DNA of 64,000 bases from assembly GCF_003417535.1 (NCBI RefSeq), contig NZ_QVLS01000002.1:248001-312000 (forward strand), written 5' to 3'. A program made the translations under genes and the position numbers. Below, piece by piece: positions 1 to 50,540 of this stretch (within the stretch, counting starts at the first letter, position 1; the number at the start of each line of letters is the position of its first letter). A model generated the notes under the pieces. It did not search any database. It saw only the letters and a list, made by a program, of their open reading frames with translations, and was not told where the DNA came from. This DNA is from Hydrogenophaga borbori. Lineage in GTDB: Bacteria > Pseudomonadota > Gammaproteobacteria > Burkholderiales > Burkholderiaceae_C.

Positions 1-3000
1 TTCCTGGAAATGGCGCTGGCCGCCAGCCGCCAGGTCTGGGGCGAGGCGCGTGCGCTGCACGAGGTGGCGATCGTCGAGCCGCTGGCCTTCGAGGGCGAGG
101 AGGCCCGCACGGTGCAGGTCGTCGTGCGCCGGCCCGAGGGCGAGGCCGCCAGCGTCGAGGTGCTGTCGCAGGCCGATGGCGCCGATGAGGACGCGTGGCA
201 ACGGCACGTGCTGGGCCGCTACGCCGACCCGGCCGAGCGCGCCGACGCGCCGCTGCCCGAGCCGCGCGAGGCCGTGCGGGAACGCTGCACCCGCACGCTG
301 GACGGCGCCGCGCACCGCGAGGGCCTGCGCGCGCGCCGGCTGGACTTCGGTCCCAGCCTGCACGGCGTGCAACGCCTGCACCGCCAGGACGGCGAAGCCC
401 TGGGCGAGATCGAACTGCCCGCCGCCGCCGGCGCGGGCGACTACCTGCTGCACCCGGCCCTGCTCGACGCCTGCCTGCAGGTGATGGCGGCGGCGCTGCC
501 CGAGCGCACGGCCGCCGGCCAGGCCTACCTGCCGATGGCGATCGAGCGCCTGCAATGGCACCGCACGCCGGGGCCGCGGGTGACCAGCCACGCGCGCATC
601 GCCGTGGGCGAGGGCGGGGCGGGGCTGCTCAAGGCCAGCGTCACCGTCGCCGACGAGCACGGGCCGGTGGCCACGCTGGAGGGCATCGCGCTGCGCCCGC
701 TGGGCGCGGGCGAGGCCCCGGTCTACGCGATCGAATGGCCGCGCGCGAGCGACGCCGCCTGGCTGCCCGCGCCCGCCGAGCTGGCCGCGTGCGCCGGCCC
801 GCTGCTCGACGGCCTGGCGCGCGAGCATGGCCTGGACGACTACCACCAGGCCTTCCTGGCGCTGGAGTCCCTGAGCGCCGACTGGATCGTGCGCGCGCTG
901 GCCGAGCTGGGCTGGCGCCCCGCGGCCGGCGAGCGGGTGGAAGCCGCCGCGCTGGCGCGCACGCTCGGCGTGGCGCCGCGCTACCACCGCCTGCTGCCGC
1001 GCCTGCTGGCCATCCTGGCCGAGGACGGCGTGCTGCGCGCCGAGGGCGGGGCCTGGCGCGTGCTGCACTGGCCCACGCCGGCCGACCCCCTGCAGCGCCT
1101 GCCCGCGCTGCTGCAGCGCCACCCGGCCGCGCGCCCGCGCTTCACGCTCACCGCGAACTGCGGCGCGGCGCTGGGCGGCATCCTGCGCGGCGCGGTGGAC
1201 CCGCTGCACCGGCTGTTCCCCGACGGCTCGGCCGCGCTGGCCGAGGCCCTGTACCGCGACGCCCCCGAGGCCAAGGCCTACAACCAACTGGTGCGCGAAA
1301 CCGTTCGCGTCGCGCTGCGCCAACTGCCCCCGGGCCAGCGCCTGCGCGTGCTGGAGGTGGGCGGCGGCACCGGCGGCACCACCGCCTGGCTGGCGCCCGC
1401 GCTGCCCGCCGGGCGCTGCGACTACCTGTTCACCGACGTCGGCCCCTCCATGGTGGCGCGCGCGAAGGAGGCCTTCGCGGCGCACCGCTTCATGGCCTTC
1501 CAGGCCCTGGACCTGGAGCAGGACCTGGCCGCGCAGGGCCTGGACGGGCGCCGCTTCGACCTCGTGATCGCCTCCAACGTGGTCCACGCCACCGCCGACC
1601 TGCGCCGCACCCTGGGCCGCCTGCGCGGGGCGCTGGCGCCCGGCGGCACCCTGCTGATGCTGGAGGTGGCCGGCGACGAGCGCTGGATCGACATCACCTT
1701 CGGCCTCACCGAGGGCTGGTGGCGCTTCACCGACACCGACCTGCGGCCCCGCCAGCCGCTGCTGTCGCGCGAGCGCTGGCTGTCGCTGCTGGCCGAGACC
1801 GGCTTCGAGGCCGCGGCCATCGATTCGCCCGACCCGCGATCGCGCGAGGTGCTGCTGGCCGCGCGAAAACCGGTGGAAGCGCAGGAGCCGATGCCCACGG
1901 GCGGGCGCTGGCTGCTGCTGACCGATCAACAGGGCGTGGGCGACGCCCTGGCCGCCGGCCTGCGTGGGGCCGGCCAGGTGGTGGACCTGCGGCCCGCGAA
2001 CGCCGCCACCGGGGCCGACGCCGCCGCGCTGCGCCAGGCCCTGGCCGGTGCCGATTGGCGGGGCGTGGTCCACCTCGGCAGCCTCGACACGTCCCCGGCC
2101 CCTGCCGGCGCCGTGGTGCCTTCGCTGCGCGCCGGCCTCGGCTCGCTGCTGGATCTGGTGCAGGCCATGGGCGCCACCGCGTTCGCCACCGCGCCGCGCC
2201 TGTGGATCGCCACGCGCGGCGCGGTGGCCGTCGATGGCGCCGACGCGGTCGACGCCGCGCAGGCGCCGACCTGGGGCCTGGGCAAGGTCATTGCGCTGGA
2301 GCACCCCGAGTGGCGCGCCAGCTGCGTCGATCTCGATCCGCGGGCCGATGCGTCCGCGATGGCCGGCGGCCTGCTGCGCGCGCTGGCCGCGGCCGATGCC
2401 GAGGACCAGGTCGCGCTGCGCGGCGGTCGGCGCCACGTGGCGCGCCTGGCGCCCTTCCCGCTGGTGGCCGCCGACGACGCGCCGGTGCGACTGGAAAAAG
2501 CCGCCAGCGGCGTGTTCGACGACATGGCCCTGCGCCCGATGGCGCGGCGCGCGCCCGGCCCGGGCGAGGTCGAGATCGCGGTGCGCGCGGCCGGCCTGAA
2601 CTTTCGCGACATCATGAACGCCGTCGCCCTGCGCGACGACCCCGAGCCCCTGGGCGGCGAATGCGCCGGGCGCATCGTGCGCGTGGGCGAAGGCGTCACC
2701 CGCTTCGCCGTGGGCGACGCCGTGGTGGCCACGGGCGAAGCCTGTTTTGCCAGCCACGTGACCACGCAGGAACGCCACGTGGCGCCGCTGCCGCGCGGCC
2801 TGGGCTACGCCCAGGCGGCCACGCTGCCCTTTGCCTTCATGACCGCCTGCCACGCGCTGCACACGCTCGGCGGGCTGCGCCCGGGCCAGCGCGTGCTCAT
2901 CCACGCCGGTGCCGGCGGCGTGGGCATGGCGGCCCTCCAGCTGGCGCGGCGCGCGGGGGCGCAGGTGTTCGCCACCGCCGGCAGCGAGCCCAAGCGCGCC

Positions 3001-4678
3001 ACGCTGCGCGCGCTCGGCGTCGACCACGTCATGGACTCGCGCACGCTGGACTTCGCCGACGAGGTGCTGCGCCTCACGCAGGGCCGCGGCGTGGACCTGG
3101 TGCTCAATTCGCTCGCCGGCGACTTCATCGCGGCCAGCGTGCGCTGCCTGGCGGCCGATGGCGTTTTCCTGGAGATCGGCAAGCGCGACATCTGGACGCC
3201 CGAGCGCTTCGCGCAGGAGCGCCCCCAGGCGCGCTACCACGCCATCGACCTCAACGCCCAGCGCTACCAGGACCCGGCCGCCGCCCAGGCCCTGTTCGAG
3301 CGGGTGATGGGCCTGGTGAACGCGGGTGAGCTGCAGCCGCTGCCGTACCACGCCTTTGCGCTGGCGCGCGGCGCCGAGGCCTTCCGCTTCATGGCCCAGG
3401 CGCGCCACACCGGCAAGGTGGTGCTCACGCGCCACGATCCGGCGCAGGCCTGCATGGAATCGCTCTCGCCCGAGGCCAGCTACCTGGTCACGGGTGGCCT
3501 CTCGGGCCTGGGCCTGATCAGCGCCATGCGGCTGGCCGAGCAGGGCGCGCGCCACCTGGTGCTGGTGGGCCGCCGCGCACCCGGCGAGGCCGCCCTGGCC
3601 ACGCTGGACGCCATGCGCGCGCTCGGCGCGCAGCTCAAGCTGGTGCAGGCCGACATGTCGCGCGCCGACGAAGTGGCGCGCGTGCTGGACCTGATCGGCG
3701 AGGACCACCCGCTGCGCGGCGTCATTCACAGCGCCGGCGTGCTGGAAGACGGCGCCCTGCAGCAGCAGACCTGGGAGCGCTTCGCGCGCCCGCTGGGCCC
3801 CAAGGTGGAGGGCGCCTGGGCCCTGCACGCGCTCACGCGCGAGCTGCCGTTGGACTTCTTCGTTCTGTATTCCTCGGTGGCCGGCCTGCTGGGTTCGTCC
3901 GGCCAGGGCAACCACGCGGCCGCCAACGCCTTCCTCGACGCGCTCGCGCTGCACCGCCGCGCGCAAGGCCTGCCGGGACTGAGCATCGCCTGGGGCGCCT
4001 GGAGCGAGGTCGGCGCCGCCGCCGACCGCGCGATCGACCAGCGCGTGGGCGCGCGCGGCATCGAAGCGATCGCGCCGCGCATGGGCCTGGACCTGCTGCA
4101 GTCGCTGATGCGCAGCGAGGCCACCAGCGTGGGCGTGTTCCCGGTGCGCTGGGAGCGCTTCCTGGAAGCGGGCGCGCCGCCGCTGCTGGAGCGCTTCCGC
4201 GCCGCGGCGCGCAGCGAGGCGCCCCGCGCGGCGAGCGCGCCGGCGCCCGAGCGCGGCGCCTCGCTGGCCGATCAACTCAAGGGGCTGTCGAGCGCGCAGC
4301 GCGCCGAGCGCCTGCTCGCCTTCGTCGGCGAGCACGTGGCGCGCGTGGTCGACGTGGCCGACGCCCGCCGCATCGACCCGCGCCAGCCGCTCAACGAGCT
4401 GGGCCTGGACTCGCTGATGGCCGTGGACCTGCGCAACCGCCTGGGCAAGGACCTGGGCCTGGCGCGCGGCCTGCCCGCCACCCTGGTGTTCGACTACCCC
4501 ACGCTGGACGCGCTGGCCGCGTACATCGGGCAGCTGCTGGCGCCGCAGGCCGAGACCGAAGCCGCCGCCGCGCCCGCGCCCGTGCCCACGGCCAGTGGCG
4601 CGGTCGAGGCCATCGATGACCTGAGCGACGAGGAGATCGAGGCCTTGTTTGCGAAGAAGCTGCAGAGAAAGCCATCGG

Positions 4679-4686
<8 letters not shown>
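1..4686 (+). CDS. Type I polyketide synthase, 5'-truncated by window edge (DH-cMT-ER-KR-ACP)
   Basis: The frame is open from base 1 (Phe-Leu-Glu-Met...), so the start lies outside the window; the ATG at 10 is internal to a dehydratase domain. Residues 1-235 are DH lacking its N-terminal His half; the second half keeps HPALLDACLQ (Asp156). Near residue 451 is the SAM motif of a C-methyltransferase (LEVGGGTGGTT). The enoylreductase follows (GLNFRDIMN; NADPH loop HAGAGGVGMAALQ near 968), then the ketoreductase (YLVTGGLSGLG near 1161) and an ACP (LGLDSLMAVDL, Ser1471). KS and AT must be encoded upstream. If all domains work, the module adds an alpha-methyl, fully reduced unit. Oddity: the KR active-site YxxxN reads HxxxN (GQGNHAAAN). 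The acidic tail (LSDEEIEALFAKKL) looks like a C-terminal docking element. The next gene overlaps it by 8 bases. Confidence 0.95.
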
Positions 4687-11431
<6,745 letters not shown>

Positions 11432-11458
11432 AGCGATTCACACCCTTTAGGAAACACC

Positions 11459-17976
<6,518 letters not shown>

Positions 17977-17980
<4 letters not shown>

Positions 17981-19921: not shown

Positions 19922-23541
<3,620 letters not shown>

Positions 23542-23544
23542 CGG

Positions 23545-31429
<7,885 letters not shown>

Positions 31430-31433
<4 letters not shown>

Positions 31434-33162: not shown

Positions 33163-33241
33163 GGGCGGCGCAAGACGTGATCACTTCATAAGGCGCTTTT
33201 CGCGGGCCTGCGAGGCAGCCGCGGCATGATGCGCGCCCGTG

Positions 33242-34243: not shown

Positions 34244-34247
34244 CGCC

Positions 34248-35885: not shown

Positions 35886-36145
35886 AGTGGGAGCTGGCCT
35901 ACGCGAAGCAGGCGCTCAAGGACGCGAGGAAGGTCAAGGCAGCAGGGCTCAAGCCAAAAGTCGACGAGCTGTTGGCGATCCTCGAGAAGGATCCTTTTCA
36001 GAATCCGCCGGCCTTTGAGAAGCTGGTGGGCGATCTCGCCGGCGCGTACTCGCGGCGGATCAACATCCACAATCGGCTGGTCTACGAAGTTTTCGCCAAG
36101 GAGCGCGTCGTCCGCGTCCTTCGCCTGTGGACGCACTACGAGTGA
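35879..36145 (+). CDS. yoeB: YoeB/Txe-family mRNA-interferase toxin
   Basis: 88 residues, right for YoeB. The family core is visible: KDPFQNPPAFEKLVGDLAGAYSRRINIHNRLVY, quoted here only in its parts DPFQNPP, SRRIN and HNRLVY, and the C-terminal THYE with the catalytic His-Tyr. YoeB cleaves mRNA in the ribosomal A site when freed from YefM. The stop lies 10 bases inside the convergent hydrolase gene's 3' end (36136), so the two coding regions overlap tail to tail, marking the right junction of the lower-GC segment. Confidence 0.93.
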   Translation: MVKWELAYAKQALKDARKVKAAGLKPKVDELLAILEKDPFQNPPAFEKLVGDLAGAYSRRINIHNRLVYEVFAKERVVRVLRLWTHYE

Positions 36146-36996: not shown

Positions 36997-37001
36997 GCGG
37001 G

Positions 37002-37808: not shown

Positions 37809-37844
37809 GGGAGGCGACGGTAACAGGCTTGGCCGTTCACCGCT

Positions 37845-40800
37845 TCAGGCGCCTTGCACCAGGCGACGCAGGCGCGACATCAGGCCGCCACCGTTCTTCG
37901 GTGGGAGGGACGGGGCGTCGGTTTCGGTGGTGGTGGCGCCGGCGGCCTGGCCGTCGTAGGCGGCGGCAAGCTGGGCCAGGGTTTCCGAGACGTAGCGGCG
38001 CGGACTCACCTGTTTGCCCACGCGTTTCTCCAGCTTCTGCACCGCCTGCATGGCGCTCAGCGAGGTGCCGCCGAGGTCGAAGAAGTTGTCGTTGCGGCGG
38101 ATGGCGGTGGTGCCCAGCAGCTCGCTCCAGACGAGGAAGATCTCGCGCTCGGTGGCCGTGCCCTGGAAGTGGTCGGCGGCCGAGGCGGCGCTGTCGCGGC
38201 GGCGCAGGCGCGAGGCGGTGGGCGCGAAGCGGCCCTCGGCGGTGGTGGCCAGGCGCTCGCAGCACAGCACCTGCAGGTGGGCGCGCGCGGCGGCGGGCAG
38301 GTGCTGGGCCAGGCGCTGGTCCACGCGCTGCAGCAGGGCGTCCAGGCCGGCGTCCTGCAGGCCGGTGTCGGGCTCCAGGCCCAGCAGCAGGCGGCGCTCG
38401 CCTTGCGGGCCGATCTGCAGCGCGGCGGCGGCGCGGGCCACCAGGGGCAGCTGGGCAATGCCCTGTTCGATGGCGTCGAGCGCCAGGCGCTGGCCGGCGA
38501 TCACGGCGTGCGCACCGTCTTCGCCGATGGCCTGCAGCACGCCGTCGGAGCGCCAGCGCGCGAGCGTGCCAGTGGCGCGCCAGCTGCCGTCGGCCCCGCG
38601 CGCCCACAGCGGCGCGGCCACGCCGATGGCGGCGGGCCGCTCGGCCGCCTCGCCGATGCGCAGGCTGTCGGGCAGCAGGGGCTTGCCGAAGGTGTTGTGG
38701 TCGGCCGGGCCGTGCGCCCAGCCCATGGCCAGGGGCAGGCCGGTGGCGGGGTCTGGGGCCAGGTTGAGGGCGCTGGCCTGGGTGTCGGCCAGGGCTTGCA
38801 TCCCTTCGGGGCTGGCCTCGCGCACGTCCAGCGCGGCGATGAGCGAGAGCGCGCGCCCGGCGTTGGCCTGCAGCAGCGTGGCCCAGCCGTTGGCGTCGGC
38901 GAAGACCAGGGCGGTGTTGTCGGCGTGCAGGGCCTCCAGGGCCTCGGGCGCGCCAGGGTCGTCGGCCAGCACCAGCTCCACGCCGTGGCGCAGCGCCAGG
39001 CCCAGCAGGGCCAGCCGCAGGCCGGGGTGGCCGCCGTGGGCGATGAGGCGGTCGCCGGGCAGCAGTTGCACTTGGGCGGCCAGGGCTTCCACGGTGTCGC
39101 TCCAGCGGCGGGCGTCGGTGTCGGCGCCGCCGGGCCAGCGCAGCGCCCGGTTCGCGCCGAAGGCGGCGAGGGCGCGGGCCAGGGCCTCGATGGGGTCCTG
39201 GGTGGCGATCTCCACGGCGGAGCGGCCACTGCCCTGCTGCGCGCGCGCGGCGGCCACGCGGGCCTGCAGGGCGGCGCCGTCCAGGGCGTTGGCGCCGTGG
39301 CGCAGCAGTGGGGTGCCGTCGGCGCGGGCCAGGGCCTTGAGCAGGTCGTGGCCGACCACCGGTGCGGCGTCGAGCGTGCGCAGGCGCTCCAGCTCGGCGG
39401 CGCCGGGCAGCAGGACGTCGGCCACGCGGCGGTTCGGGTTGTCGGCCAGGCCCATCAGCGTGGCCAGGAAGCGCTCGCGCAGCAGCTGCGCGGTGCTGGG
39501 CAGGAAGAGCTGGGTGTCGTACTGGATGCCGCCTTCGATGCCGCCGGGGATTTCCACCAGCCAGAAGTTCAGGTCCTCGGTGGCGCCGCGGTGTTTGAAG
39601 CGCGTGCGCTCATGCGTGAGCGGGCCCCAGTTGGCGGGACGCGCGCGCGCGTCCTGGAAGGTGAACAGGGCCTGGTAGAGGCGGCCGTGCTGGCCGGGCT
39701 GGGCGGTCTCCAGCGCGGCGGACAGGCGCTCGAAGGGCACGTCCTGGTTGGCGAAGGCGTCCACCATGGTGGCGCGCACGTGCTTGATCCACTCCAGCCA
39801 GCTCATCTCGGGCCGCACGGCCAGGCGCACCGGCAGCATGTTGTTGAAGAAGCCCATGATGGGCTCCAGGTCCGGGTGCGGGCGGCCGCGCACCGGCACC
39901 CCGATGGTGGGCTCGGGGTCGTGCAGCAGCTGCGAGGCCAGCACCGCGTACACGGCGAGGGCGACGATGCTCAGCGTGGAGCCGGTCTGCTTGGCGACTT
40001 CGCGCACGCGCTCCGCATGGGCGGATTCGATGCGCATGTACTCGGTGCTGCCCACGCGCTGCGCGCCGGGCAGGCGCGGCAGGTCGGTCAGCGCGGCCGG
40101 CACGGGGCGTTTGAGGAACTGGCGCTGCCAGTGGTCGAGCTGGCTGGCGATTTCTTCGCCCTGCATCCATTCGTTGTGCCAGGCGGCGAAGTCCACGTAC
40201 TGCAGCGGCATGGCGGGCAGCACGGGTTCGCGCTGCTCCAGCAGGGCCGAATAGAACGCGCTCATGTTCTCGTACAGCAGGTCGAAGGACCAGCCGTCCC
40301 ACACCACGTGGTGGGTCATGAAGAAAAAGATGTGGTGGCGCTCGTCCATGCGGATGAGCCGGGCGCGGAACAGCGGGGCCTGGTCCAGGGCGAAGGGCTG
40401 GGCCACCCAGGTGGTGACGAGGTCGGCCATGGCCTCCTCGCGCCGGGCCTCGGGCACGTGGCTCAGGTCTTCGACGGGCAGCAGCGAGCAGGGCACGCTG
40501 TCGAGCGTGCGCTGCACCCAGGTGTCGCCGTCGCGCACGACGATGGTCCGCAGCGAGGCCTGGCGCCGCACCATGGCCTGGAAGGCCTGGTCGAACAGGG
40601 CTTCGTCCATGGGGCCGCGCAGGCGGTGGGCCGAGGGCACGTTGTAGACCACGCGGCCGGGGTGCATTTCCTCGATGAAGCGGATGCGCTCCTGCATGAG
40701 CGTGAGCGGGGCCTGGCGCCGCTCGGGCTGGTGCACCAGCGGCGGGCGCTGCGGGGCGTTGCCGCCGCGCTGCTCGTCGATGGCGCGCGCCAGCTTTTGC

Positions 40801-43800
40801 ACCGTGGGCGATTCGAACAGCACGCGCAGGTTCAGCTGCAGGCCGAGGCCCTTGTTGAGCTGGCCCATGAGCTTGGCGGCGAGCAGCGAGTGGCCGCCGA
40901 GCGCGAAGAAGTCTTCGTCGGCGCCGATCGCGGGCAGCTTGAGCACGGCCTGCATGGCCTCCAGCACGGCGCGTTCGGTGTCGGTGGCCGCAGCGGTGAG
41001 CGGGCCGCTGGCGGCCGGGGCCATGGCCACGGGTTGCGGCAGGGCCTTGCGGTCGATCTTGCCGTTGGGCAGCAGGGGCAGGGCGTCCAGCAGCACCACC
41101 TGCTGGGGCAGCATGTAGTCGGGCAGGCCGCCGCGCAGGGCCTCGCGCAGCGCGGCGGGCTCGGGCGTGGCGCCGGCGGCCGGCACGGCGTAGGCGATCA
41201 GGCGCACATCGCCGGGCGTGTCCTCGCGCGCCATGACCACGGTGCGCGCGACACCGGGCAGCGCGGCCAGGCGGGCCTCGATTTCGCCGAGTTCGATGCG
41301 GTAGCCGCGGATCTTGACCTGGAAGTCCAGGCGGCCCAGGTGTTCCAGGGTGCCGTTGTCGAGCCAGCGGGCGAGGTCGCCGGTGCGGTACAGGCGCGCG
41401 CCCGGCGCGGCGCTGAAGGGATCGGCCACGAAGCGCTCGGCCGTGAGTTCGGGGCGGTTGAAGTAGCCGTTGGCCACGCCGGTGCCGCCGATGCACAGCT
41501 CGCCTTCCTGGCCGATGCCGCAAGGCCTGCCCTGCTCGTCGAGCACCCAGACCTGGGTGTTGGCGATGGGGTGGCCGATGCTGATCTTCTGCGTGGCATC
41601 GGTGATGCGCTGCACCGTGGACCAGACCGTGGTCTCGGTGGGGCCGTACATGTTCCAGAGCTCGATCTTCTGGTCCAGCAGCTGGGCGGCGAGCGAGGGC
41701 GGCAGCGGCTCGCCGCCGCACAGGGCGCGGAAGTTCGCGGGCGCGCGCCAGCCCGCGTCCAGCAGCATGTGCCAGGTGGTGGGCGTGGCCTGCATCACGT
41801 TGATGCGCTGCTCGGCGATGAGGCGGCCCAGCACCTCGCCGTCCATGATTTCCTCGCGCTGCGCGAGCACGGTGCAGGCGCCGATGGCCAAGGGCAGGTA
41901 GAGCTCCAGCACCGCGATGTCGAAGGACAGGGTGGTGACGGCGAGCAGGCGGTCGCTGGCCGTCAGGCCCGGCTCGCGCCGCATGGCCATGAGGAAGTTG
42001 CTCACCGCGCGCTGCGGCACCACCACGCCCTTGGGCTTGCCGGTGGAGCCGGAGGTGTAGATCACGTACATCGGCGCGTCGCCGCTGGGGTTCTGCGGCG
42101 TGGGCAGCTCGGTGTCGGGCGCGGCGTCGATCAGGGCGCGGTCGTCGTCGACGCGGACCTGCTGCTCGCGCGACAGGCCGCTGAGCGCGGCGTGCGCCGA
42201 TTCGGTGATGACCAGGCGCAGGCCCGCGTCCTCGGCCATGTAGCTCAGGCGGTCCTTGGGGAAGTTCGGGTCCAGCGGCACGTAGGCGGCGCCGGTCTTG
42301 AGGATGCCCAGCAGCGCGGGCACCAGCTCGGGGCCGCGCGCCATGCAAACGCCCACCAGGTGGCCGGGGCCGACGCCGCGCTGCGCCAGCAGCTGGGCGA
42401 AACGCCGGGCGCGCTGTTCGAGCTGGGCGTAGGTGAGCGGAGCGCCGTGCGCGATCACCGCGATGGCGTCGGGCGTGGCCAGGGCCTGCTGGCGGATGGA
42501 GGCCTCGACGCGCGTGGTGACGTCGAAGGGCATGTCGGTGGCGCGGTTCCAGGCGCCCAGGCGCGGGTCGACGGTGGGCGTGGCGGCGCTGGCCGGCGCT
42601 GGCGCCGCGGATGCCTTCGGCGTGGCGGGCGCGGCCACCGCGGGCGAGCCATTGAGCCGGTCGATCTGCGCCAGCAGGCCGTCCACCAGGGATTGCGCGC
42701 GCTCCAGGCTGAAGAACTCGGCGCTGTGGTGCAGGTCCAGCGTGAGCGCGGCGTCCTGCTCGTAGAAGTTGAAGAACAGCTCGGCCAGCAGGCCCTGCTT
42801 GCGGCCTTCGTGCAGGGCGGCGCGCAGCGGCAGGTAGCCCGAGAGGTCGACCTTGGGGTTGAGGTTGAAGTAGATGCCGGTGAGCGGCGGGCGGTCGCCG
42901 CGGCTGGGCAGGCCCAGGGCGCGGGCCAGCGTGCCCTGCGTCATGACCGGGTACTCCAAGGCATCCATGAGGTGCGAGCGCACGCGCGTGAGCAGCGCCT
43001 CATCGGTGTCCTGTGGCGAGCACGACAGTCGCAGCGGCAGGTCGAGCACGCCGTCGGCCATGAGCGGGCCATGGCGCTGCAGCGCCTGGCTGGCGTAGGG
43101 GATGCTGACGACGAATTCGTCCTGGCCGCCGCGTTCCTGGATCAGGCGCGTGACGGCGGTGAGCAGCCACTGGAACAGGGTGGCGCCGCGCGCCTTGGCG
43201 CGCTGGCGCAGCTGCTCCAGCCGCGGGCCCTCGATGCGCACGCGCACGGTGTCGGCCGTGAACTGGCGGCGCCCGGCCGGGCTGCGGTCGCCCAGGTTCA
43301 CCGGAGGGGGCGGCTGCTGCATCACGTTGGTCCAGAACGCCAGCGCCTCCCGGGCCTGCGCGCTGTCCTGGCGCGCCTGCTCGGCGGCGGCGAAGGCCAG
43401 CGGCGACTCGGCGGGTTTGGCGAAGGCCGGCGCCATGCCCTGGCGGCGCGCCTGGTAGGCCTCGGCGAGCTCGGCGTTGAAGACGCTGGAGGCCCAGCCG
43501 TCGAAGATCAGGTGGCTGGCGACCACGTGCACCACCACGCGGCCATCGGACAGCTCGAGCAGGCTGAAGGCGGCGAGCGGGGCCTGGTCGAAGGGGAAGT
43601 CGCGCCGGCTGGCCTGTGTGCAGAAAGCGTCGAGCGCGGCGTCGGCGTCGGCCTCGTGGCGCAGGTCCACCTCGGCGATGGCCACGGGCTTGAGCGGCTG
43701 CAGGCTCTGGCGCGGCTCGCCGGTGTCGAAGGCCAGGTGGAAGGCGGCGTGGCGCTGCGCCACGTCCTGCAGGGCCTGGCGCAGCGCGGCCTTGTCGGCG

Positions 43801-46800
43801 CCGCCCTGCAGGCTCACGCAGAAGGACTCGTTGAGCGCGCGGCGCGCGTTGTCGTCGAAGGCGCCGACCAGCCAGCGCTCGGTCTGGCCGGGCGAAAGGG
43901 CGGCTTCGGTGGGCGCCGCGGTGGCGGTGGTGTTCGTGGGCGTGGGCTCCACGGGCTGGCCGCCGCCGGGCGAGCCGCCATCGCGGCGCGTGATGAAGCC
44001 CTGGGCCATCAGCTCGTCCAGGGCCTTGAGGATGGTGTCGGCGATGCGGGTGGTGATCTCTTCCGTCATGGCCTCGGTCACGAAGTGGCCGAACTGCTCG
44101 TAGACGTGCAGGCCCAGGTGGCGGATCAGGTAGTAGAAGAGGCTGACGTTCTTCTGCCCTTCGTCCCAGTGCAGGCGCCAGATGGAGGCGCAGTGCACCG
44201 CGCTGCAGGGCGCGCCGCGCTGCGCGAAGCCGGCGTTGAGGCGGTCGATCATGCGCTGGGTGCGCGCGTTGATCTCGGTATAGAAGGCCGGGCCCGCGCG
44301 GTCGATGTGCTCCAGCGAGGCCTTGGCCGCGGCCAGGGCCAGCGGGTGGCGCACGAAGGTGCCGGCGAAGTAGGTGACGCCCGCCTCGGGATAGGAGTGG
44401 TCGCCGTACTGCCAGTGGCCGCCGTCCAGGGCGTCCAGCCAGTTGGCGTTGCCGGCGATGGCCGCGAAGGGCAGGCCGCCGCCGATGACCTTGCCGAAGG
44501 TGGCGATGTCGGCGCGCACGCCGTAGAACTCCTGGGCGCCGCCGCGCGCCACGCGAAAGCCGGTGACGACCTCGTCGAAGATCAGCGCGCAGCCGTGCTG
44601 GTCGGCGATCTCGCGCAGCGAGCGCACGAACTCGCGCGGGCGGATGTTGGGGTACTTGTTCTGGATCGGCTCGGTCATGATGGCCGCGAGCTGCGGCCCC
44701 TGCTCGCGCAGGACCTTGAGCGATTCCTCGCTGTTCCAGTCGAGCACGAGGATGTTCTCGACCGCGTTGGCCAGGATGCCCGGCGCGGCCGACAGCGAAC
44801 GCAGCTGCTTGGTGCCGCGCACGATGACCTCGTCGAAGATGCCGTGGTACGAGTTGCTGAAGATGGCGATCTTCTTGCGGCCGGTGACGGTGCGCGCGAT
44901 GCGCATGGCGCCCATCACGGCCTCGGAGCCGGTGTTGCAGAAGCCCACGCGCTCCATGCCGGTGAACTGCGAGATGAGGCGCGCGACGTCGGCCGACAGC
45001 GGGTGCTGCGGGCCGACCTCCAGGCCCCGGTCGAGCTGCTGGTGCATGGCCTGCAGCAGGTAGTCGGGCTGGTAGCCCAGCATGTTGGCGCCGAAGCAGG
45101 AGAGCAGGTCGATGTACTCGTTGCCGTCCAGGTCCCACAGGCTCGCGCCCTTGGAGCGCTCGACGACGATGGGATAGACCAGGTCCTTCCACATCGGGTT
45201 GAAGCCGGTGACCACGCGCGGGTCGGCCATGACCTTGCGGTTGTCCTGGCTGAAGGACTTGGATTTGCCGGTGCGCGCGTTGTACTGGGCGATGAAGTCG
45301 TCGATCCAGCGGTGCTGGGCGGGCGTGAAGTCCTGCCCGGCCTGCAGCGTGAGGCGCGGCGAGGCGCCGAAGGGTTTGTCGACCAGGGCCTTGATGGAAG
45401 GCTCGGCGCCGTCGGCACCGGGGGTGTTGCCCCCGGCGGCGGGTGCGGGGGCGGTTGCGCTGGCGCGGGCCACGGGCGCGGCGGCGCTGACCGGGGCGGC
45501 CACCGGTGCGGCCATCGGTGCGGCCACGGCGGCCGGTGCCACCGGCGCGCCGGCGAGCAGCGCGAGCTGCTGCGACATGAGCTGCATCTGCTGTTGGATG
45601 AGCGTGTGCAGCGCGCCGCCCTGGCCGGCGGCCAGCGGGGCGGCATGGAAGGCGGGCAGGGCCACGGCTTGCGGCGCGGCCATCGGTGCGGACAGGGCGA
45701 CGGCATCGGCCACGACCGGTGCGGCCACCGCGGCCGGCGCGGGGGGCGCGAAGCGCTCGGGCGGCATCTCGGCGTCGAGCAGGGCCGCGAGCTTGTGCGT
45801 GTTGTCCAGGTCTTCCAGCAGGCGGCGGAAGCGCAGCTTGACGCCGAACACGCGCTCGATCTCCAGCGTGGCCTGGGTCAGCGAGAGCGAGTCCAGGCCC
45901 TGGTCCACGAAGCTGGCTTCGGGCGCGATCTCGTCGGCGGGCAGGCCCGAGACATCGCTGAGGATGCGTTGCAGTTCGGCTTCGACGGCGGGGATGCGAC
46001 TCATGGCAATAGGGGCCTGCTGGGGTGCCGGGGCACCGGTCGATGAAAGGGTGGGGGTGGCGGGGGCGCGGCGCGTGAACCAGTGGCGCTCGCCGCCGAA
46101 GGGGTAGGTGGGCAGGGCCGCGCGGCGCGCGCTCGCGGCCACGGGCCAGGCGATGTCCACGCCCGCGCACCACAGCGCGCCGATGGTGGCGAGCGCGTGC
46201 GCGGCGGGCTCGCCGGGCTGGTTGGCGGGACCGAGCAGGGCCAGGCAACGCGGCACCGCGTTCTGCGCGCTGCGGTGCTGGCGCACCAGCGCGGACAGCG
46301 CCTGGCCGGGGCCGACCTCCAGGAAGACGCACTCGCCCTGGGCGAGCTCGGCCTGCACGGCCTGGCTGAAGCGCACGGGCGCGCGCACCTGGCGCGCCCA
46401 GTAGCCGGGGTCGGTGGCCTCGGCGGCGGTCAGCGGCGCGCCGCTGACGCAGGAATAGACCGGCAGGCGCGGCGCGCCCAGGGGGGCCTTGGCGAGCGCG
46501 GCTTGCACGCGCGGCAGCGCACCGTCCATGCTGGCGCTGTGGAAGGCGTGCGAGACGCGCAGGCGGGTGCAGTGCACCTCGCTGGCTTCCAGGGTCTTGG
46601 CCAGCGAGTCGATGGCCTCGAAGGGGCCCGCGACGACGGTGAGCGTGGGCGCGTTGATGCCCGCGATGTCGATGCCTTCGGGCAGGCGCGCGCGCAGTTC
46701 GTCCGCGCCCAGGCGCACGGCCAGCATGGCGCCAGGGGGCTGTTCGGCCATGGCCTGGCCGCGCGCGACCACGGCGGCCAGTGCGTCGTCCAGCGGCATC

Positions 46801-49800
46801 ACGCCGGCGTGGCAGGCGGCCGCGTACTCGCCGATGCTGTGGCCGATGAGCGCCGCGGGCTTCAGGCCCAGGCTGTCGAGCCAGCTGGCCAGCGCGTAGG
46901 ACATGGCGAACAGCGCCGGCTGCGCGTGGCGCGTGTCGGCCAGCTCGGCCGCGATGGCCTCGTCGGCCGGATCGGCCTGCACCAGCCAGGGCAGCAGGTC
47001 GGTGCCGCCGAGCAGGGGTTGGAGCGCCTCGGTGCAGCGCCGCAGGGCCTCGCCGAAGGCGGGGGCCTCATCGAACAGCTGGCGCGCCATGCCCGGGTGC
47101 TGCGAGCCCTGGCCGGGGAACAGGAAGACCAGGCGAGGTGCGGCCAGGGCGGTGGTGGGGGATTTGAGCCCGCGCAGCGCCGCGATGGCCTGCGCGGTGG
47201 AGGCCGCGACCACGCTCAGGCGCTGCGCCATGGCCCGGCGCCCGCGCATCAGCGTGGCGGCCACGGCGGGCAGCGGCAGCTCGGGGTGGGCCTGCAGGTG
47301 GTCGGCCAGGGCGTGGGCGCGCGCCAGGGCCTCGTCGGCCGTGCGGGCGGACAGCGGCAGCACCCAGCGCTGGCCTTCGGCCTGCTCGCCGGTGGAAGAC
47401 GGCGCAGCAGGTGCAGCAGGCGCGGCCTCGATGACCACGTGGGCGTTGGTGCCGCCCACGCCGAAAGAACTGACGGCGGCGCGGCGCGGGGCGTCGCCAT
47501 GGCCTTCGGTCCAGGGCGTGTTGCGCGCCACCACCTGGAAGGGTGTGCGCCCGAAATCGATCTGCGGGTTGGGCTGGGTGTAGTGCAGCGTGGCCGGGAT
47601 GACGCCGCGCTGCAGCGCCAGCGCGGCCTTGGCCAGGCCCACCACGCCGGCGCCCGCCGCCAGGTGGCCGATGTTGCTCTTGACCGAGCCGATGGCGCAG
47701 AACTGCGTGTCCGCGGTGTCTTCGGCCCAGGCCTTGCTCAGCGCGCTGATCTCGATCGGATCGCCCAGCGCCGTGGCGGTGCCGTGCGCTTCCACGTAGC
47801 CGATGCTGCGCGGGTCGACGCCGGCGTGCTCCAGCGCCATGCGAATGGCTTCCATCTGGCCCGCGACGCTGGGCGCGGTGAAGCTGGCCTTGTCGCCGCC
47901 GTCGTTGTTGAGGCCCACGCCGCGCACCACCGCGTAGATGGTGTCGCCGGCCGCGACGGCGTCGTCCAGGCGCTTGAGCACCACCATGCCGCCACCGCTG
48001 GCGAACACGGTGCCGCTGGCCTGGGCATCGAAGGGGCGGCAGTGGCCGTCGGCCGACTCCATGCCGCCCTCAACGTGCAGGTAGCCCGTGGCCTGCGGCA
48101 CGTGCACGTTGGCGCCGCCGGCCAGCGCGATGTCGCACTGCCCGCTGGCCAGCGCGTGCCAGGCCTGCGCCACGGCCACCAGGCTGGTGGAGCAGGCGGT
48201 GTGGATGCTGAGCGCCGGGCCCTTGAGGTTGAGGCGGTTGGCGATGCGCGTGGCGACGTAGTCCTTTTCGCTCGCCAGCATGGTGGCGAACTCGCCCACC
48301 TGGCGGATGAGCTCGGGGTTCTCCTGGCGCAGCGCGAGCGCATAGGCGTTGTTGCCGGTGCCGGCGTACACGCCCACGCGTTCGCTGGTGCGCGTGTGGT
48401 CGATGCCGGCGTGCTCCAGCGCGCTGATGCTGAGTTCCAGCATCAGGCGCTGCTGCGGGTCCAGCAGCACGGCCTCGCGGGCGGAGACACCGAAATGCGC
48501 GGCGTCGAAGCGGTCGGCGTGTTCCAGCGCGCCGTGCGCGGGCACGAAGTTCGGGCGCGCGCGCTGTTCTTCCGGCACGGCGGGGTCGAGTTCGTCCGGG
48601 CGGAAATGGCGGATGCCCTCGCGCCCGTCCAGCAGGTTCTGCCAGAAGGATTCGAGGTCGGGCGAGCCCGGCACGCGCACGGCCATGCCCACGATGGCGA
48701 TGCCACCTGCGGCGTTGGCCGGGGCCGCGCGGCGCGGGCGGCGCGGCGCGCTGGCCGTGCCCGCCATGGCGGCGGCCATGCCGGCCAGGGTGGGGCGGTC
48801 GTACACATCGGCCACGCCAAGGGTGGTGATGCCCGCCTCGCGCACACGCGAGACGAAGCGCATCACCAGCAGCGACTTGGCGCCGATGTCGAAGATGTTC
48901 TGCTCGTCCGCGATGCGTTCGACCCCCAGCAGCTCGCACCACAGTCGGCGCGCCAGGGCCAGCGGGTCGCTGGCGTCCAGCGGGCTCGCGTCCATCGCGG
49001 GCAGGGGCAGGCTGCGGCGGTCGATCTTGCCGCTGGGCGTGACGGGCAGGCGGTCGAGCACCACGTAGCGCACCGGCACCATGTACTCGGGCATGCGCGC
49101 GCGCAGGTGCTGGCGCCACAGGGGCGACAGGCTGGCCGCTGCTGCGGCCACGCCGGGGTTCAGCACGACGTGCGCCACCAGCTGGCGGCCCGCGCCGGGC
49201 AGCTCGGGCGCCGTCACCACGGCTTCCTTCACGCTCTCGTGCGCCATCAGGGCGAGTTCGATTTCGCCGGGCTCGATGCGAAAGCCATCGACCTTGACCT
49301 GCTGGTCCGCGCGGCCCAGGTACGTGAGCACGCCGTGTTCGTCGCGGCGCACCAGGTCGCCGGTGAGGTACCAGGTCTGGCCACCGGGGCCGGGCTCGGG
49401 GCCGACGTCGGTGCGGAAGCGTTCGGCGCTCAGATCGGCGCGGCCCAGGTAGCCATTGGCCAGGGTTTCCCCGCCCAGCAACAGCTCGCCCACGGTGAAA
49501 CCTTCGCCGTCGTCGTGCGCCTCGCGCAGGGCCACCTGCACGTGCGGCAGGGCCTTGCCGATGGGGGGGATCTCGGGCCACTGCGCCGGGTCGCCGGTGA
49601 GGTCGTGCGCGGTGACGACGTGGCTTTCGGTGGGGCCGTAGTGGTTGTGCAACTCGGCGCCGGGCAGGCGCTGGAACAGGGCGCGGATGGCCGGGCTCAC
49701 CTGCAATTGCTCGCCGGCGCTGACCACTTCGCGCAGGTGGCGCGGCGCCTCGTCGCGCGAGGCGTCGGCGATCATCTGCAGCGCCACGTAAGGCACGAAG

Positions 49801-50540
49801 AGGCGCTCGACGCGCAGGTCGATCAGCGCGCGGTGCAGCAAGGCCGGGTCGCGGCGCTGGGCGTCGGGCACCAGCACCAGGGTGCCGCCCGTGGCCACGG
49901 TGGAGAAGATTTCCTGGAAGTGCACGTCGAAGGACAGCGGCGCGAACTGAAGGGTGCGCGCGGCCTGGCCCAGGCGCGGGTGCGCCACGTGCCAGTGAAT
50001 GAGGTGGCGCAGCGGACCCTCGCCCATGGCCACGCCCTTGGGCCGGCCGGTGGAGCCGGAGGTGAAGAGAACGTAGGCCAGGCGGGGTCCGGCGGCGTGC
50101 AGGTCCGACGTGGCGGGGGCGGGCCGCTCCAGCGTGGGCAGCTCGCCCACGCGTTCGCGCAGCAGGGCCAGTGCCGATGCCTCGCCCACCACGGCGCGCG
50201 GGCGCGCGTCATCGAGCATGGCGGCCAGTCGTTCGGCGGGGTACGCCAGATCGAGCGGCACGTAGCCCACGTCCAGGTGGGCGGCGGTGAGGATGTGGAC
50301 GATGGACTCGGGCGAGCGCGTGGCGGCGATGGCGATGCGCTCGCCACCGCGCACGCCCGCCTCCCGCCAGCGGCGCGCGCCGTCTTCGACGCGCGCGAGC
50401 AGTTCGCGGTACGTCAGCGTCTGACCGTCGGCGGTTTCCAGGGCGGGCCGCTCGGGCCAGGCCCGCGCCGCTTGGACGAGCCATTCACCCAAACGGGACA
50501 CACGCCGTGCCGATGGTTCCGTTTGAGCTGTCTTGTCCAT
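37845..50540 (-). CDS. Hybrid NRPS-PKS megasynthase with aminotransferase: A-PCP-KS-AT-ACP-AMT-C-A-PCP-C-A*-PCP
   Basis: 4231 residues from the ATG at 50540 (GAGG at 50546-50549 on this strand; a GTG two codons earlier is possible). Domains: A1 about 15-510 (TSGSTGRPKG near 160; signature D-V-Q-F-V-A-H-V-V-K, close to published proline codes such as DVQFIAHVVK), with no C domain before it, hence a loading module. PCP (IGAKSLLV). KS (HTACSTSL, Cys783). AT (GHSIGEY, Ser1235; HAFH, malonyl). ACP (GLDSLSL, Ser1551). Class III PLP aminotransferase about 1740-2170 (FGKVIGGGLPF, Lys2017). C (SHLIFDG, His2343). A2 (TSGSTGKPKG near 2827; D-I-L-Q-L-G-M-V-W-K, glycine-like). PCP (Ser3218). C (HHVVWDG near 3411). 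A degenerate A domain about 3720-4115 lacking its ATP-binding core. Last PCP (LGGTSLS, Ser4160). The KS-AT-ACP-AMT-C-A-PCP part mirrors mycosubtilin MycA, with an A-PCP loader in place of the acyl ligase. Confidence 0.96.
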   Translation of the reverse strand: MDKTAQTEPSARRVSRLGEWLVQAARAWPERPALETADGQTLTYRELLARVEDGARRWREAGVRGGERIAIAATRSPESIVHILTAAHLDVGYVPLDLAYPAERLAAMLDDARPRAVVGEASALALLRERVGELPTLERPAPATSDLHAAGPRLAYVLFTSGSTGRPKGVAMGEGPLRHLIHWHVAHPRLGQAARTLQFAPLSFDVHFQEIFSTVATGGTLVLVPDAQRRDPALLHRALIDLRVERLFVPYVALQMIADASRDEAPRHLREVVSAGEQLQVSPAIRALFQRLPGAELHNHYGPTESHVVTAHDLTGDPAQWPEIPPIGKALPHVQVALREAHDDGEGFTVGELLLGGETLANGYLGRADLSAERFRTDVGPEPGPGGQTWYLTGDLVRRDEHGVLTYLGRADQQVKVDGFRIEPGEIELALMAHESVKEAVVTAPELPGAGRQLVAHVVLNPGVAAAAASLSPLWRQHLRARMPEYMVPVRYVVLDRLPVTPSGKIDRRSLPLPAMDASPLDASDPLALARRLWCELLGVERIADEQNIFDIGAKSLLVMRFVSRVREAGITTLGVADVYDRPTLAGMAAAMAGTASAPRRPRRAAPANAAGGIAIVGMAVRVPGSPDLESFWQNLLDGREGIRHFRPDELDPAVPEEQRARPNFVPAHGALEHADRFDAAHFGVSAREAVLLDPQQRLMLELSISALEHAGIDHTRTSERVGVYAGTGNNAYALALRQENPELIRQVGEFATMLASEKDYVATRIANRLNLKGPALSIHTACSTSLVAVAQAWHALASGQCDIALAGGANVHVPQATGYLHVEGGMESADGHCRPFDAQASGTVFASGGGMVVLKRLDDAVAAGDTIYAVVRGVGLNNDGGDKASFTAPSVAGQMEAIRMALEHAGVDPRSIGYVEAHGTATALGDPIEISALSKAWAEDTADTQFCAIGSVKSNIGHLAAGAGVVGLAKAALALQRGVIPATLHYTQPNPQIDFGRTPFQVVARNTPWTEGHGDAPRRAAVSSFGVGGTNAHVVIEAAPAAPAAPSSTGEQAEGQRWVLPLSARTADEALARAHALADHLQAHPELPLPAVAATLMRGRRAMAQRLSVVAASTAQAIAALRGLKSPTTALAAPRLVFLFPGQGSQHPGMARQLFDEAPAFGEALRRCTEALQPLLGGTDLLPWLVQADPADEAIAAELADTRHAQPALFAMSYALASWLDSLGLKPAALIGHSIGEYAAACHAGVMPLDDALAAVVARGQAMAEQPPGAMLAVRLGADELRARLPEGIDIAGINAPTLTVVAGPFEAIDSLAKTLEASEVHCTRLRVSHAFHSASMDGALPRVQAALAKAPLGAPRLPVYSCVSGAPLTAAEATDPGYWARQVRAPVRFSQAVQAELAQGECVFLEVGPGQALSALVRQHRSAQNAVPRCLALLGPANQPGEPAAHALATIGALWCAGVDIAWPVAASARRAALPTYPFGGERHWFTRRAPATPTLSSTGAPAPQQAPIAMSRIPAVEAELQRILSDVSGLPADEIAPEASFVDQGLDSLSLTQATLEIERVFGVKLRFRRLLEDLDNTHKLAALLDAEMPPERFAPPAPAAVAAPVVADAVALSAPMAAPQAVALPAFHAAPLAAGQGGALHTLIQQQMQLMSQQLALLAGAPVAPAAVAAPMAAPVAAPVSAAAPVARASATAPAPAAGGNTPGADGAEPSIKALVDKPFGASPRLTLQAGQDFTPAQHRWIDDFIAQYNARTGKSKSFSQDNRKVMADPRVVTGFNPMWKDLVYPIVVERSKGASLWDLDGNEYIDLLSCFGANMLGYQPDYLLQAMHQQLDRGLEVGPQHPLSADVARLISQFTGMERVGFCNTGSEAVMGAMRIARTVTGRKKIAIFSNSYHGIFDEVIVRGTKQLRSLSAAPGILANAVENILVLDWNSEESLKVLREQGPQLAAIMTEPIQNKYPNIRPREFVRSLREIADQHGCALIFDEVVTGFRVARGGAQEFYGVRADIATFGKVIGGGLPFAAIAGNANWLDALDGGHWQYGDHSYPEAGVTYFAGTFVRHPLALAAAKASLEHIDRAGPAFYTEINARTQRMIDRLNAGFAQRGAPCSAVHCASIWRLHWDEGQKNVSLFYYLIRHLGLHVYEQFGHFVTEAMTEEITTRIADTILKALDELMAQGFITRRDGGSPGGGQPVEPTPTNTTATAAPTEAALSPGQTERWLVGAFDDNARRALNESFCVSLQGGADKAALRQALQDVAQRHAAFHLAFDTGEPRQSLQPLKPVAIAEVDLRHEADADAALDAFCTQASRRDFPFDQAPLAAFSLLELSDGRVVVHVVASHLIFDGWASSVFNAELAEAYQARRQGMAPAFAKPAESPLAFAAAEQARQDSAQAREALAFWTNVMQQPPPPVNLGDRSPAGRRQFTADTVRVRIEGPRLEQLRQRAKARGATLFQWLLTAVTRLIQERGGQDEFVVSIPYASQALQRHGPLMADGVLDLPLRLSCSPQDTDEALLTRVRSHLMDALEYPVMTQGTLARALGLPSRGDRPPLTGIYFNLNPKVDLSGYLPLRAALHEGRKQGLLAELFFNFYEQDAALTLDLHHSAEFFSLERAQSLVDGLLAQIDRLNGSPAVAAPATPKASAAPAPASAATPTVDPRLGAWNRATDMPFDVTTRVEASIRQQALATPDAIAVIAHGAPLTYAQLEQRARRFAQLLAQRGVGPGHLVGVCMARGPELVPALLGILKTGAAYVPLDPNFPKDRLSYMAEDAGLRLVITESAHAALSGLSREQQVRVDDDRALIDAAPDTELPTPQNPSGDAPMYVIYTSGSTGKPKGVVVPQRAVSNFLMAMRREPGLTASDRLLAVTTLSFDIAVLELYLPLAIGACTVLAQREEIMDGEVLGRLIAEQRINVMQATPTTWHMLLDAGWRAPANFRALCGGEPLPPSLAAQLLDQKIELWNMYGPTETTVWSTVQRITDATQKISIGHPIANTQVWVLDEQGRPCGIGQEGELCIGGTGVANGYFNRPELTAERFVADPFSAAPGARLYRTGDLARWLDNGTLEHLGRLDFQVKIRGYRIELGEIEARLAALPGVARTVVMAREDTPGDVRLIAYAVPAAGATPEPAALREALRGGLPDYMLPQQVVLLDALPLLPNGKIDRKALPQPVAMAPAASGPLTAAATDTERAVLEAMQAVLKLPAIGADEDFFALGGHSLLAAKLMGQLNKGLGLQLNLRVLFESPTVQKLARAIDEQRGGNAPQRPPLVHQPERRQAPLTLMQERIRFIEEMHPGRVVYNVPSAHRLRGPMDEALFDQAFQAMVRRQASLRTIVVRDGDTWVQRTLDSVPCSLLPVEDLSHVPEARREEAMADLVTTWVAQPFALDQAPLFRARLIRMDERHHIFFFMTHHVVWDGWSFDLLYENMSAFYSALLEQREPVLPAMPLQYVDFAAWHNEWMQGEEIASQLDHWQRQFLKRPVPAALTDLPRLPGAQRVGSTEYMRIESAHAERVREVAKQTGSTLSIVALAVYAVLASQLLHDPEPTIGVPVRGRPHPDLEPIMGFFNNMLPVRLAVRPEMSWLEWIKHVRATMVDAFANQDVPFERLSAALETAQPGQHGRLYQALFTFQDARARPANWGPLTHERTRFKHRGATEDLNFWLVEIPGGIEGGIQYDTQLFLPSTAQLLRERFLATLMGLADNPNRRVADVLLPGAAELERLRTLDAAPVVGHDLLKALARADGTPLLRHGANALDGAALQARVAAARAQQGSGRSAVEIATQDPIEALARALAAFGANRALRWPGGADTDARRWSDTVEALAAQVQLLPGDRLIAHGGHPGLRLALLGLALRHGVELVLADDPGAPEALEALHADNTALVFADANGWATLLQANAGRALSLIAALDVREASPEGMQALADTQASALNLAPDPATGLPLAMGWAHGPADHNTFGKPLLPDSLRIGEAAERPAAIGVAAPLWARGADGSWRATGTLARWRSDGVLQAIGEDGAHAVIAGQRLALDAIEQGIAQLPLVARAAAALQIGPQGERRLLLGLEPDTGLQDAGLDALLQRVDQRLAQHLPAAARAHLQVLCCERLATTAEGRFAPTASRLRRRDSAASAADHFQGTATEREIFLVWSELLGTTAIRRNDNFFDLGGTSLSAMQAVQKLEKRVGKQVSPRRYVSETLAQLAAAYDGQAAGATTTETDAPSLPPKNGGGLMSRLRRLVQGA
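38190..39375 (-). other. Degenerate adenylation domain within the megasynthase
   Basis: Between the last C domain and the last PCP lie about 390 residues that align with the two ends of an adenylation domain. The N-terminal part has the pattern LLPGDRLIAHGGHPGLRLALLG, here quoted by its parts PGDRLIAH and LRLALLGLAL. The C-terminal part has GTLARWRSDGVLQ and GQRLALDAIEQGI, matching GDLARW-x-DG and GFRIELGEIE of active domains. The TSGSTG loop, FDxxxxE block and YGPTE motif are missing, and the conserved Asp of GDL is Thr. It cannot bind ATP in the usual way. Confidence 0.8.

Follow-up and report, generated by a model that had tools for sequence, protein, structure and literature searches.

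How is the product of a megasynthase unloaded when no thioesterase (TE) is fused behind its last carrier protein? This question is raised by a convergent polyketide synthase (PKS)/nonribosomal peptide synthetase (NRPS) locus of Hydrogenophaga borbori, which occupies the left 50 kb of the stretch of DNA analysed here and 21 kb beyond its left edge. That whole stretch, called the window below, comprises the 64,000 nucleotides from 248001 to 312000 of contig NZ_QVLS01000002.1 (assembly GCF_003417535.1), in a genome of 4.58 Mb. The locus has two arms, arm 1 on the forward and arm 2 on the reverse strand, and in both the last peptidyl carrier protein (PCP) domain is directly followed by genes for two alpha/beta hydrolases, h2 and then h1. 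A preliminary description of the window had already noticed a hydrolase pair of the same kind at the end of each arm, and in this it was right. With a rough probability of two in three, we propose that the locus consists of two separate, neighbouring assembly lines, each of which would be unloaded in trans by its own pair acting as a cysteine-based, two-protein enzyme. The release pair, rather than the two-armed unit, is the stronger finding and the more interesting object of the locus. The two endings are made up as follows.

28095..31433, forward strand: last NRPS of arm 1, with TubC_N, condensation (C), adenylation (A, Gly-like code) and PCP domains and no TE.
31430..32197, forward strand: arm 1 h2, a TIGR03101-like alpha/beta hydrolase below the cut-off; elbow GLRLG, without Ser or Cys.
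32194..33099, forward strand: arm 1 h1, a TIGR03100-like alpha/beta hydrolase below the cut-off; Cys in the elbow GLCSG.
36136..37005, reverse strand: arm 2 h1, TIGR03100-like, below the cut-off; Cys in the elbow GLCSG.
37002..37808, reverse strand: arm 2 h2, TIGR03101-like, below the cut-off; elbow GMGLG, without Ser or Cys.
37845..50546, reverse strand: arm 2 megasynthase, in the order A (Pro-like code), PCP, ketosynthase (KS), acyltransferase (AT, motif HAFH), acyl carrier protein (ACP), aminotransferase (AMT), C, A (Gly-like code), PCP, C, A (degenerate), PCP.

Pfam searches found no thioesterase or reductase domain fused to either arm (PF00975 without a match), and the tails past the last PCPs are short. 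Both hydrolases are remote relatives of exosortase-A families, h1 of hydrolase 1 (TIGR03100) and h2 of hydrolase 2 (TIGR03101), and do not reach the NCBIfam cut-offs: the window's h1 proteins score 95.7 and 48.5 bits (cut-off 168.45) and its h2 proteins 113.8 and 74.5 bits (cut-off 202.75). A sequence search of the Protein Data Bank with arm 2 h1 returned remote hydrolases and esterases only (best 2.7e-06). Across 29 aligned rows of h1, the Cys of the nucleophile elbow (Cys117, in GLCSG or similar) is invariant, as is Asp140, which is only a candidate for the acid of a putative catalytic triad, and His258 is conserved in at least 90%. The elbow of h2 varies (GLRLG, GMGLG, GARLG) and contains no invariant nucleophile in 21 rows; Cys33 of h2 is nearly invariant and lies outside the elbow. 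We suggest that the two proteins could form a heterodimer, in which the chain would be moved from the last carrier protein onto the h1 Cys, and h2, as the second subunit, would probably serve to dock the carrier or to shape the pocket.

The genes for h2 and h1 stand side by side in both arms and in relatives, and the PCP-h2-h1 ending recurs in AMT synthases of many Proteobacteria and of Corallococcus. We reject a chance neighbourhood, since the pair follows the last PCP in too many separate loci. We also reject a recent duplication of one pair into both arms on the basis of the h1 tree, in which the arm 1 clade (support 98/99) and the arm 2 clade (100/99) are separate deep lineages, far apart, with long branches meeting beside arm 1 (Aquabacterium rows are labelled Sphaerotilaceae in this tree). 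In what follows, G numbers denote genomes and L numbers loci. A further copy of a carrier with h2-h1 lies at L092:13869-16392 (G028:C18) and at G064:C50 125440-127286, in two genomes that also hold both arms.

Another genome of the genus, G001, has a small set of the XrtA (exosortase A) type, with TIGR03099, TIGR03098, TIGR03101 and TIGR03100, all above cut-off, an 86-residue ACP-like protein (weak matches), a TIGR03694 acyltransferase above cut-off and two PEP-CTERM-like proteins below cut-off. This set adjoins an EpsB/transferase and membrane-protein block resembling that of the window. Pairs of this type are thus found in two settings, behind a free ACP with a neighbouring ligase and behind the terminal carrier domain of a megasynthase. 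The genome that contains the window (rated 100% complete) gave no exosortase match at E <= 0.001 with TIGR02602, the one model used.

The main evidence pointing to a role of the pair in release comes from the wider family to which arm 2 belongs. The core order of this family is A-PCP-KS-AT-ACP-AMT-C-A-PCP. A scan of named genomes with an alignment of 11 AMT domains gave at least 587 relatives. The best 80 of these, which we used, carry the labels of six phyla and include loci from Aquabacterium, Caldimonas, Variovorax, Lysobacter, Silanimonas, Luteimonas, Dokdonella, Corallococcus, Mucilaginibacter, Hymenobacter, Spirosoma and Nostoc, as well as from metagenome-assembled genomes of Nitrospirales (no starter A within the sequence examined) and Planctomycetota (two KS-AT). 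The starter A has a Pro-like code by a strict pattern in 45 of the 69 loci read, and the second A a Gly-like code in 61 of 76.

For 66 of the best 80 loci we could score how the synthase ends; the other 14 were left out, their last PCP being undetected or too close to the end of the sequence. In the initial table a fused TE occurs without the pair in 33 loci, the pair without a TE in 24, both in none and neither in 9. One locus first scored as having neither (L150) has a PF00975 TE tail, so that the corrected counts are 34, 24, 0 and 8. Fisher's test on the uncorrected 33/24/0/9 table gives p = 1e-10 for exclusion, a value that ignores shared ancestry. Ten tails were checked with Pfam, and nine proved to be PF00975 thioesterases; the tenth (L137) had no Pfam match. 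In L137 and in L138, both from Luteimonas, the frame continues from the last carrier into an h2 match without a stop (L137:17737-18627); these matches are weak (55 and 53 bits) and mark a candidate fusion. One locus counted with the pair, L151, has it upstream of the synthase. There, and in L145, the pair is split, h2 lying immediately before the synthase and h1 being divergent. Among the loci left out, four show PCP-h2-h1 (L108, L111, L112, L116), L145 has the pair upstream, L162 has a TE-like tail, and no TE tail is seen in L122 and L123, where only about 1.4 kb of sequence remains.

TE and pair also replace one another among relatives. On the AMT tree the TE label needs four changes, three of them forced by starred branches. 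Inside Lysobacterales, a TE and a pair are found in relatives, L166 standing beside L182, L137 and L138 (SH-aLRT, an approximate likelihood ratio test, 95); a second swap in this order, L117 beside L113, L114 and L120, has a support of only 86-88. The mutual exclusion of fused TE and pair, together with these swaps, points to the pair as the release enzyme.

If each line has its own release enzyme, do the two arms still depend on one another? Inside the genus as sampled, the two-armed locus of the preliminary description stands. We surveyed 197 relatives, taking an h1 of at least 64% identity as arm 1-type and of at least 56% as arm 2-type. The former occurs in five genomes (G000, G011, G028, G046, G064) and the latter in eight, namely the same five and G022, G038 and G066; arm 1 is always accompanied by arm 2 (5/5), and 3 of the 8 arm 2 carriers lack arm 1. 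The arms converge side by side in four of these five genomes, the gap between the h1 genes being 0.04-0.6 kb in G046, G011 and G028 and, with other genes in between, 3 kb in the window. In G064 they occupy two contig ends, oriented so as to fit convergence. The three genomes with arm 2 only have, after arm 2, a co-directional NRPS that again ends in PCP-h2-h1.

Elsewhere the arms come apart. A wider survey covered 399 genomes of the family, a sample of a larger group. In it, two genomes of another genus, both rated 100% complete, contain a stand-alone arm 1 (G313:C11 38679-84900; G474:C29 16249-63200). It consists of the six-module polyketide line and the pair, with an NRPS part of the order C-A(Thr-like)-PCP-C-A(Gly-like)-PCP and no counterpart of PKS7 (the PKS between the two NRPSs of arm 1, see below), and neither genome has an AMT synthase. 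Arm 2-type synthases without arm 1 are also present in many other taxa. The gene-order comparison that the preliminary description had called for thus rules out a strict two-armed unit, arm 1 without arm 2 being found only outside the genus. The arms are therefore modules that have been united in one genus, neither needing the other everywhere, and separate products are more likely than one joint molecule.

The question remains of what would accept the released chain. We consider it plausible that the chain is transferred to a glycan, so that the arm 2 product would be passed to a polysaccharide or its precursor and not to water. In the window, 12-14 kb separate the AMT from the gene for a priming sugar transferase.

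57270..58682, forward strand: polyprenyl glycosylphosphotransferase of the XrtA/PEP-CTERM-system type (TIGR03013), above cut-off.

To see how general this is, we used 50 of the best 80 named genomes, searched for PF02397 and AMT. In 24 of the 50, the AMT has a priming sugar transferase no more than 30 kb away, where chance would give about 1.6; for a limit of 15 kb the figures are 15 observed and 0.8 expected. The synthase's contig carries such a transferase in 35 genomes and lacks one in 15. As a control, 34 further NRPS clusters from these genomes were examined, and not one has a priming transferase at 30 kb or less. This control is weak and uneven: the clusters, drawn from the best C domains listed, come from 12 genomes (nine of them from a single genome), and just 9 of the 34 share a contig with a transferase. 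Gene order offers further examples. In Lysobacter sp. CAU 1642 the genes before the synthase encode a UDP-sugar dehydrogenase and an epimerase, and those after it h2, h1, a cupin protein and a second epimerase. A plasmid of Variovorax paradoxus VAI-C (L198; CP063167.1 2393525-2419308) has, on one strand, two synthases, a phosphopantetheinyl transferase (PPTase), h2, h1 and then capsule-type genes, in the order polysaccharide export protein, tyrosine autokinase, sugar transferase, GDP-fucose synthase, hypothetical protein, glycosyltransferase and more; its h2 was matched to the family, and its h1, annotated as hypothetical, has a GMCSG elbow and an h1-like sequence. In G126 and G115, glycan genes adjoin h2/h1, and the 20-kb stretches examined contain no NRPS.

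Several observations weigh against release by the pair or against a glycan as acceptor. The simple test of exclusion is inflated, as a single clade of Bacteroidota, all with a TE, accounts for 29 of the 33 TE loci, and eight AMT loci have neither a TE nor the pair within the sequence examined. Arm 1 could instead be released by a free-standing type II-like thioesterase at its head, a homologue of which is present in 7 of 7 arm 1 loci examined (with an adjoining PPTase in 5). None of 11 Aquabacterium-group genomes (L104-L109, L111, L112, L115, L116, L119) has a priming transferase within 30 kb; in nine it is not on the contig or is 675 kb away, and in L104 and L109 the distance is 38-39 kb. Two plasmid loci, those of Spirosoma and of Variovorax RA8, have no annotated polysaccharide gene at a distance of up to 18 kb (annotation there is incomplete), and the arm 1-only genomes G313 and G474 gave no match to the window's glycan-gene queries.

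These points bear on the alternatives to different degrees. The most serious one, to which we give somewhat less than an even chance, is that the products are free lipopeptides or small peptides: the pair would merely hydrolyse the chain, and nearness to glycan genes would be a neighbourhood effect of variable genome islands. That relatives replace the pair by a fused TE, which normally hydrolyses or cyclises, would fit this, as would the EamA-type membrane proteins encoded inside arm 1 and the missing glycan linkage in most Aquabacterium-group genomes. It accounts less readily for the contrast between 24 of 50 synthases and 0 of 34 other NRPS clusters near a priming transferase, or for the same-strand order with capsule genes in Variovorax VAI-C. 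A glycan as acceptor for the pair is the bold reading, and we regard it as less likely than not. Equally tentative is the wider scenario that several phyla decorate an exopolysaccharide (EPS) or a lipid-linked precursor with a megasynthase-made beta-amino peptide (a Pro-derived vicinal diamine plus Gly), grafted by a two-protein Cys acyltransferase that would have originated in exosortase/EPS loci as the unloader of a stand-alone ligase-ACP system and that, in this genus, would also unload a lipopeptide line.

Two other explanations concern the pair and the arms themselves. It is unlikely that the arms build one joint molecule, in which h1 of arm 1 would pass the acyl chain of that arm to the free amine of the Pro in the arm 2 chain and the arm 2 pair would release the product. 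The Pro nitrogen should indeed be free, and the companionship of arm 1 with arm 2 within the genus sample, mostly convergent and with the h1 genes close, is what such a joint product would lead one to expect; yet arm 1 stands alone in two complete-rated genomes lacking any AMT, arm 2 occurs without arm 1 in G022, G038, G066 and other genera, and no gene for the joining step was recognised. Similarly unlikely, in our estimate, is that h1 and h2 load rather than release, as aminoacyl shuttles like SyrC and CmaE serving the last carrier of modules without a working A domain. SyrC and CmaE are aminoacyltransferases of the alpha/beta-hydrolase fold with a Cys nucleophile, a feature that h1 shares; the last A of arm 2 is dead, and several relatives have a C-PCP lacking an A. 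The pair also follows last modules with an intact A domain, however, in arm 1 and in L105, L106 and L147, and relatives have in its place a fused TE, a domain with no loading function. Trans unloading of two separate lines by their own pairs is thus the reading that we prefer.

What the two lines might make can be read, with due caution, from domain order and specificity codes. We checked the domain order by Pfam searches and open reading frame calls, including the left flank sequence; flank genes were called with a home-made GC-frame picker that performs poorly at lower G+C. Each domain listed in the preliminary description was recovered. Its account of arm 1 as three reducing PKS modules, NRPS, PKS and NRPS is accurate within the window, but the PKS genes begin about 19 kb to the left, where three extra PKS proteins bring the modules upstream of the first NRPS to six (PKS1-PKS6). 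Similarly, its statement that neither arm has a thioesterase or reductase holds for fused domains and not for the type II-like thioesterase, which lay outside its view at a window coordinate of about -20.2 kb, beside a divergent PPTase (both identified by eye). Besides its last NRPS and the pair, arm 1 consists of the following, where DH, MT, ER and KR stand for dehydratase, methyltransferase, enoylreductase and ketoreductase domains.

Window -21205 to -19355: PPTase and type II-like thioesterase, by eye; head of arm 1.
Left of the window: PKS1, KS-AT-DH-KR-ACP.
Left of the window: PKS2, KS-AT-DH-ER-KR-ACP.
Left of the window: PKS3, KS-AT-MT-ACP.
1..4686, forward strand: C-terminal part of PKS4, DH-MT-ER-KR-ACP in the window, with KS-AT to the left; the gene starts 2942 bases left of the window.
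4649..11431, forward strand: PKS5, KS-AT-DH-MT-KR-ACP.
11459..17980, forward strand: PKS6, KS-AT-DH-ER-KR-ACP; the DH motif differs from HxxxGxxxxP.
17959..18963, forward strand: EamA/DMT-type membrane protein.
18932..19921, forward strand: second EamA/DMT-type membrane protein.
19918..23541, forward strand: arm 1 NRPS, tandem TubC_N docking-C-A(Gly-like code)-PCP.
23545..28098, forward strand: PKS7, KS-AT-KR-ACP.

Both arms are collinear series of type I modular PKS/NRPS domains with their catalytic residues, the exceptions being the last A domain of arm 2, which has lost its core motifs, and the DH of PKS6, whose unusual motif makes the reductive outcome of that module uncertain. Three PKS modules of arm 1 contain a methyltransferase domain. 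The AT motif is HAFH in PKS4-7 and arm 2, VASH in PKS1, YAFH in PKS2 and HAAH in PKS3. The AMT of arm 2 is an in-line class III aminotransferase (PF00202, 1.1e-53) placed after the ACP and before the C domain, as in AMT-type PKS modules for beta-amino acids. The preliminary description had recognised the NRPS-PKS-aminotransferase protein, all of whose listed domains are present, and had missed its third elongation module with the degenerate A.

For the codes, A domains were aligned to GrsA and read at its code positions. They read DILQLGMIW and DILQFGLIW in arm 1 and DVQFVAHVV (starter) and DILQLGMVW (second A) in arm 2, which, by the code tables, would stand for Gly and Gly in arm 1 and for Pro and Gly in arm 2. 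The building blocks guessed earlier (a Pro starter, Gly, and a 4-amino-3-hydroxybutanoyl unit from Gly and a KR-only PKS module) agree with these codes and the domain order, and the resulting chemistry is plausible. Arm 1 would make a branched acyl chain with its six PKS modules and then add Gly, extended by malonate to the 4-amino-3-hydroxybutanoyl unit, and Gly. Arm 2 would start with Pro, extend it by malonate, convert the new keto group to a beta-amine with its in-line aminotransferase, and afterwards add Gly and one further residue, whose own A domain is dead. Since L105, L106 and L147 have an intact Gly-coded A domain at this position, the third residue of arm 2 was probably once Gly; it may now be loaded in trans. 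The predicted arm 2 chain would be 3-amino-3-(pyrrolidin-2-yl)propanoyl-Gly-(Gly).

Other genes lie between and beside the arms.

33239..34243, forward strand: quinone oxidoreductase-like protein between the arms, below cut-offs.
34230..35132, forward strand: third EamA/DMT-like membrane protein (TIGR00950 below cut-off; start uncertain).
35643-36145, forward strand: two small genes between the arms, antitoxin/toxin-like (Phd- and RelE-like by eye).
50758..51684, forward strand: methyltransferase adjoining arm 2.
51681..52766, forward strand: polysaccharide-deacetylase-like protein, by eye; no library match.
52779..55007, reverse strand: protein with a PcRGLX-type N-terminal barrel (PF19501).
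55247..57184, forward strand: multi-pass membrane protein, O-antigen-ligase-like by eye; no library match.
58794-59408: small protein encoded between the EPS transferase gene and that of the HprK-like kinase; SHGYWKN motif, N-terminus of twin-arginine-like type; no family match.
59698..60618, forward strand: HprK-related kinase A (TIGR04352), above cut-off.
60533..61789, forward strand: uncharacterised nucleotidyltransferase (PF14907).

Homologues of the deacetylase-like and PcRGLX-type proteins accompany arm 2 in the same six of seven same-genus carriers examined (not in G046; G064 is outside the count).

Several known systems resemble parts of the locus. The hydrolases of the exosortase A (XrtA/PEP-CTERM) system are likewise adjacent, in the order h2-h1, after a carrier charged by an AMP-forming enzyme, and have a TIGR03013 glycosyltransferase close by. 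In that system a TIGR03098 ligase and an ACP supply the chain, whereas the window's pairs score far below the curated cut-offs, are supplied by a PKS/NRPS megasynthase and stand in a genome without a TIGR02602 match. PKS modules with an in-line aminotransferase are known from iturin/mycosubtilin and microcystin; there, as in arm 2, a PF00202 domain after KS-AT-ACP and before C makes a beta-amino acid, but these lines have a fatty acyl or aromatic starter and a TE, in contrast to the Pro starter and the PCP-h2-h1 ending of arm 2. SyrC and CmaE, likened to h1 by description and not by sequence, also act on carrier-bound acyl groups, but h1 is paired with a partner without an elbow nucleophile and stands at the position of a TE. 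Microsclerodermin-type modules join Gly and malonate to 4-amino-3-hydroxybutyrate (GABOB). Their order of NRPS(Gly), PKS(KS-AT-KR) and NRPS is that of arm 1, again by description and not by sequence, with a different polyketide, release and phylum.

A full-text literature search, seen as titles and the beginnings of abstracts, gave no recognisable description of this pairing or of an arm 2-type Pro-beta-amino-Gly pathway. Two papers, on N-acyl tyrosines (PMC7293339) and on N-acyl amino acids (PMC11511702), name PEP-CTERM and may bear on exosortase-linked acyl amino acids.

In the family library, exosortase-A hydrolases 1 and 2 are labelled only as a 'hypothetical equivalog'. Because one synthase family naturally ends in either a TE or the pair, these hydrolases acquire a concrete, testable role, the unloading of acyl carrier proteins. 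Independently of how it is released, the product line of arm 2 represents a widespread Pro-beta-amino-Gly pathway, and if the acceptor is indeed a sugar, the pair would open a new route to peptide-bearing exopolysaccharides.

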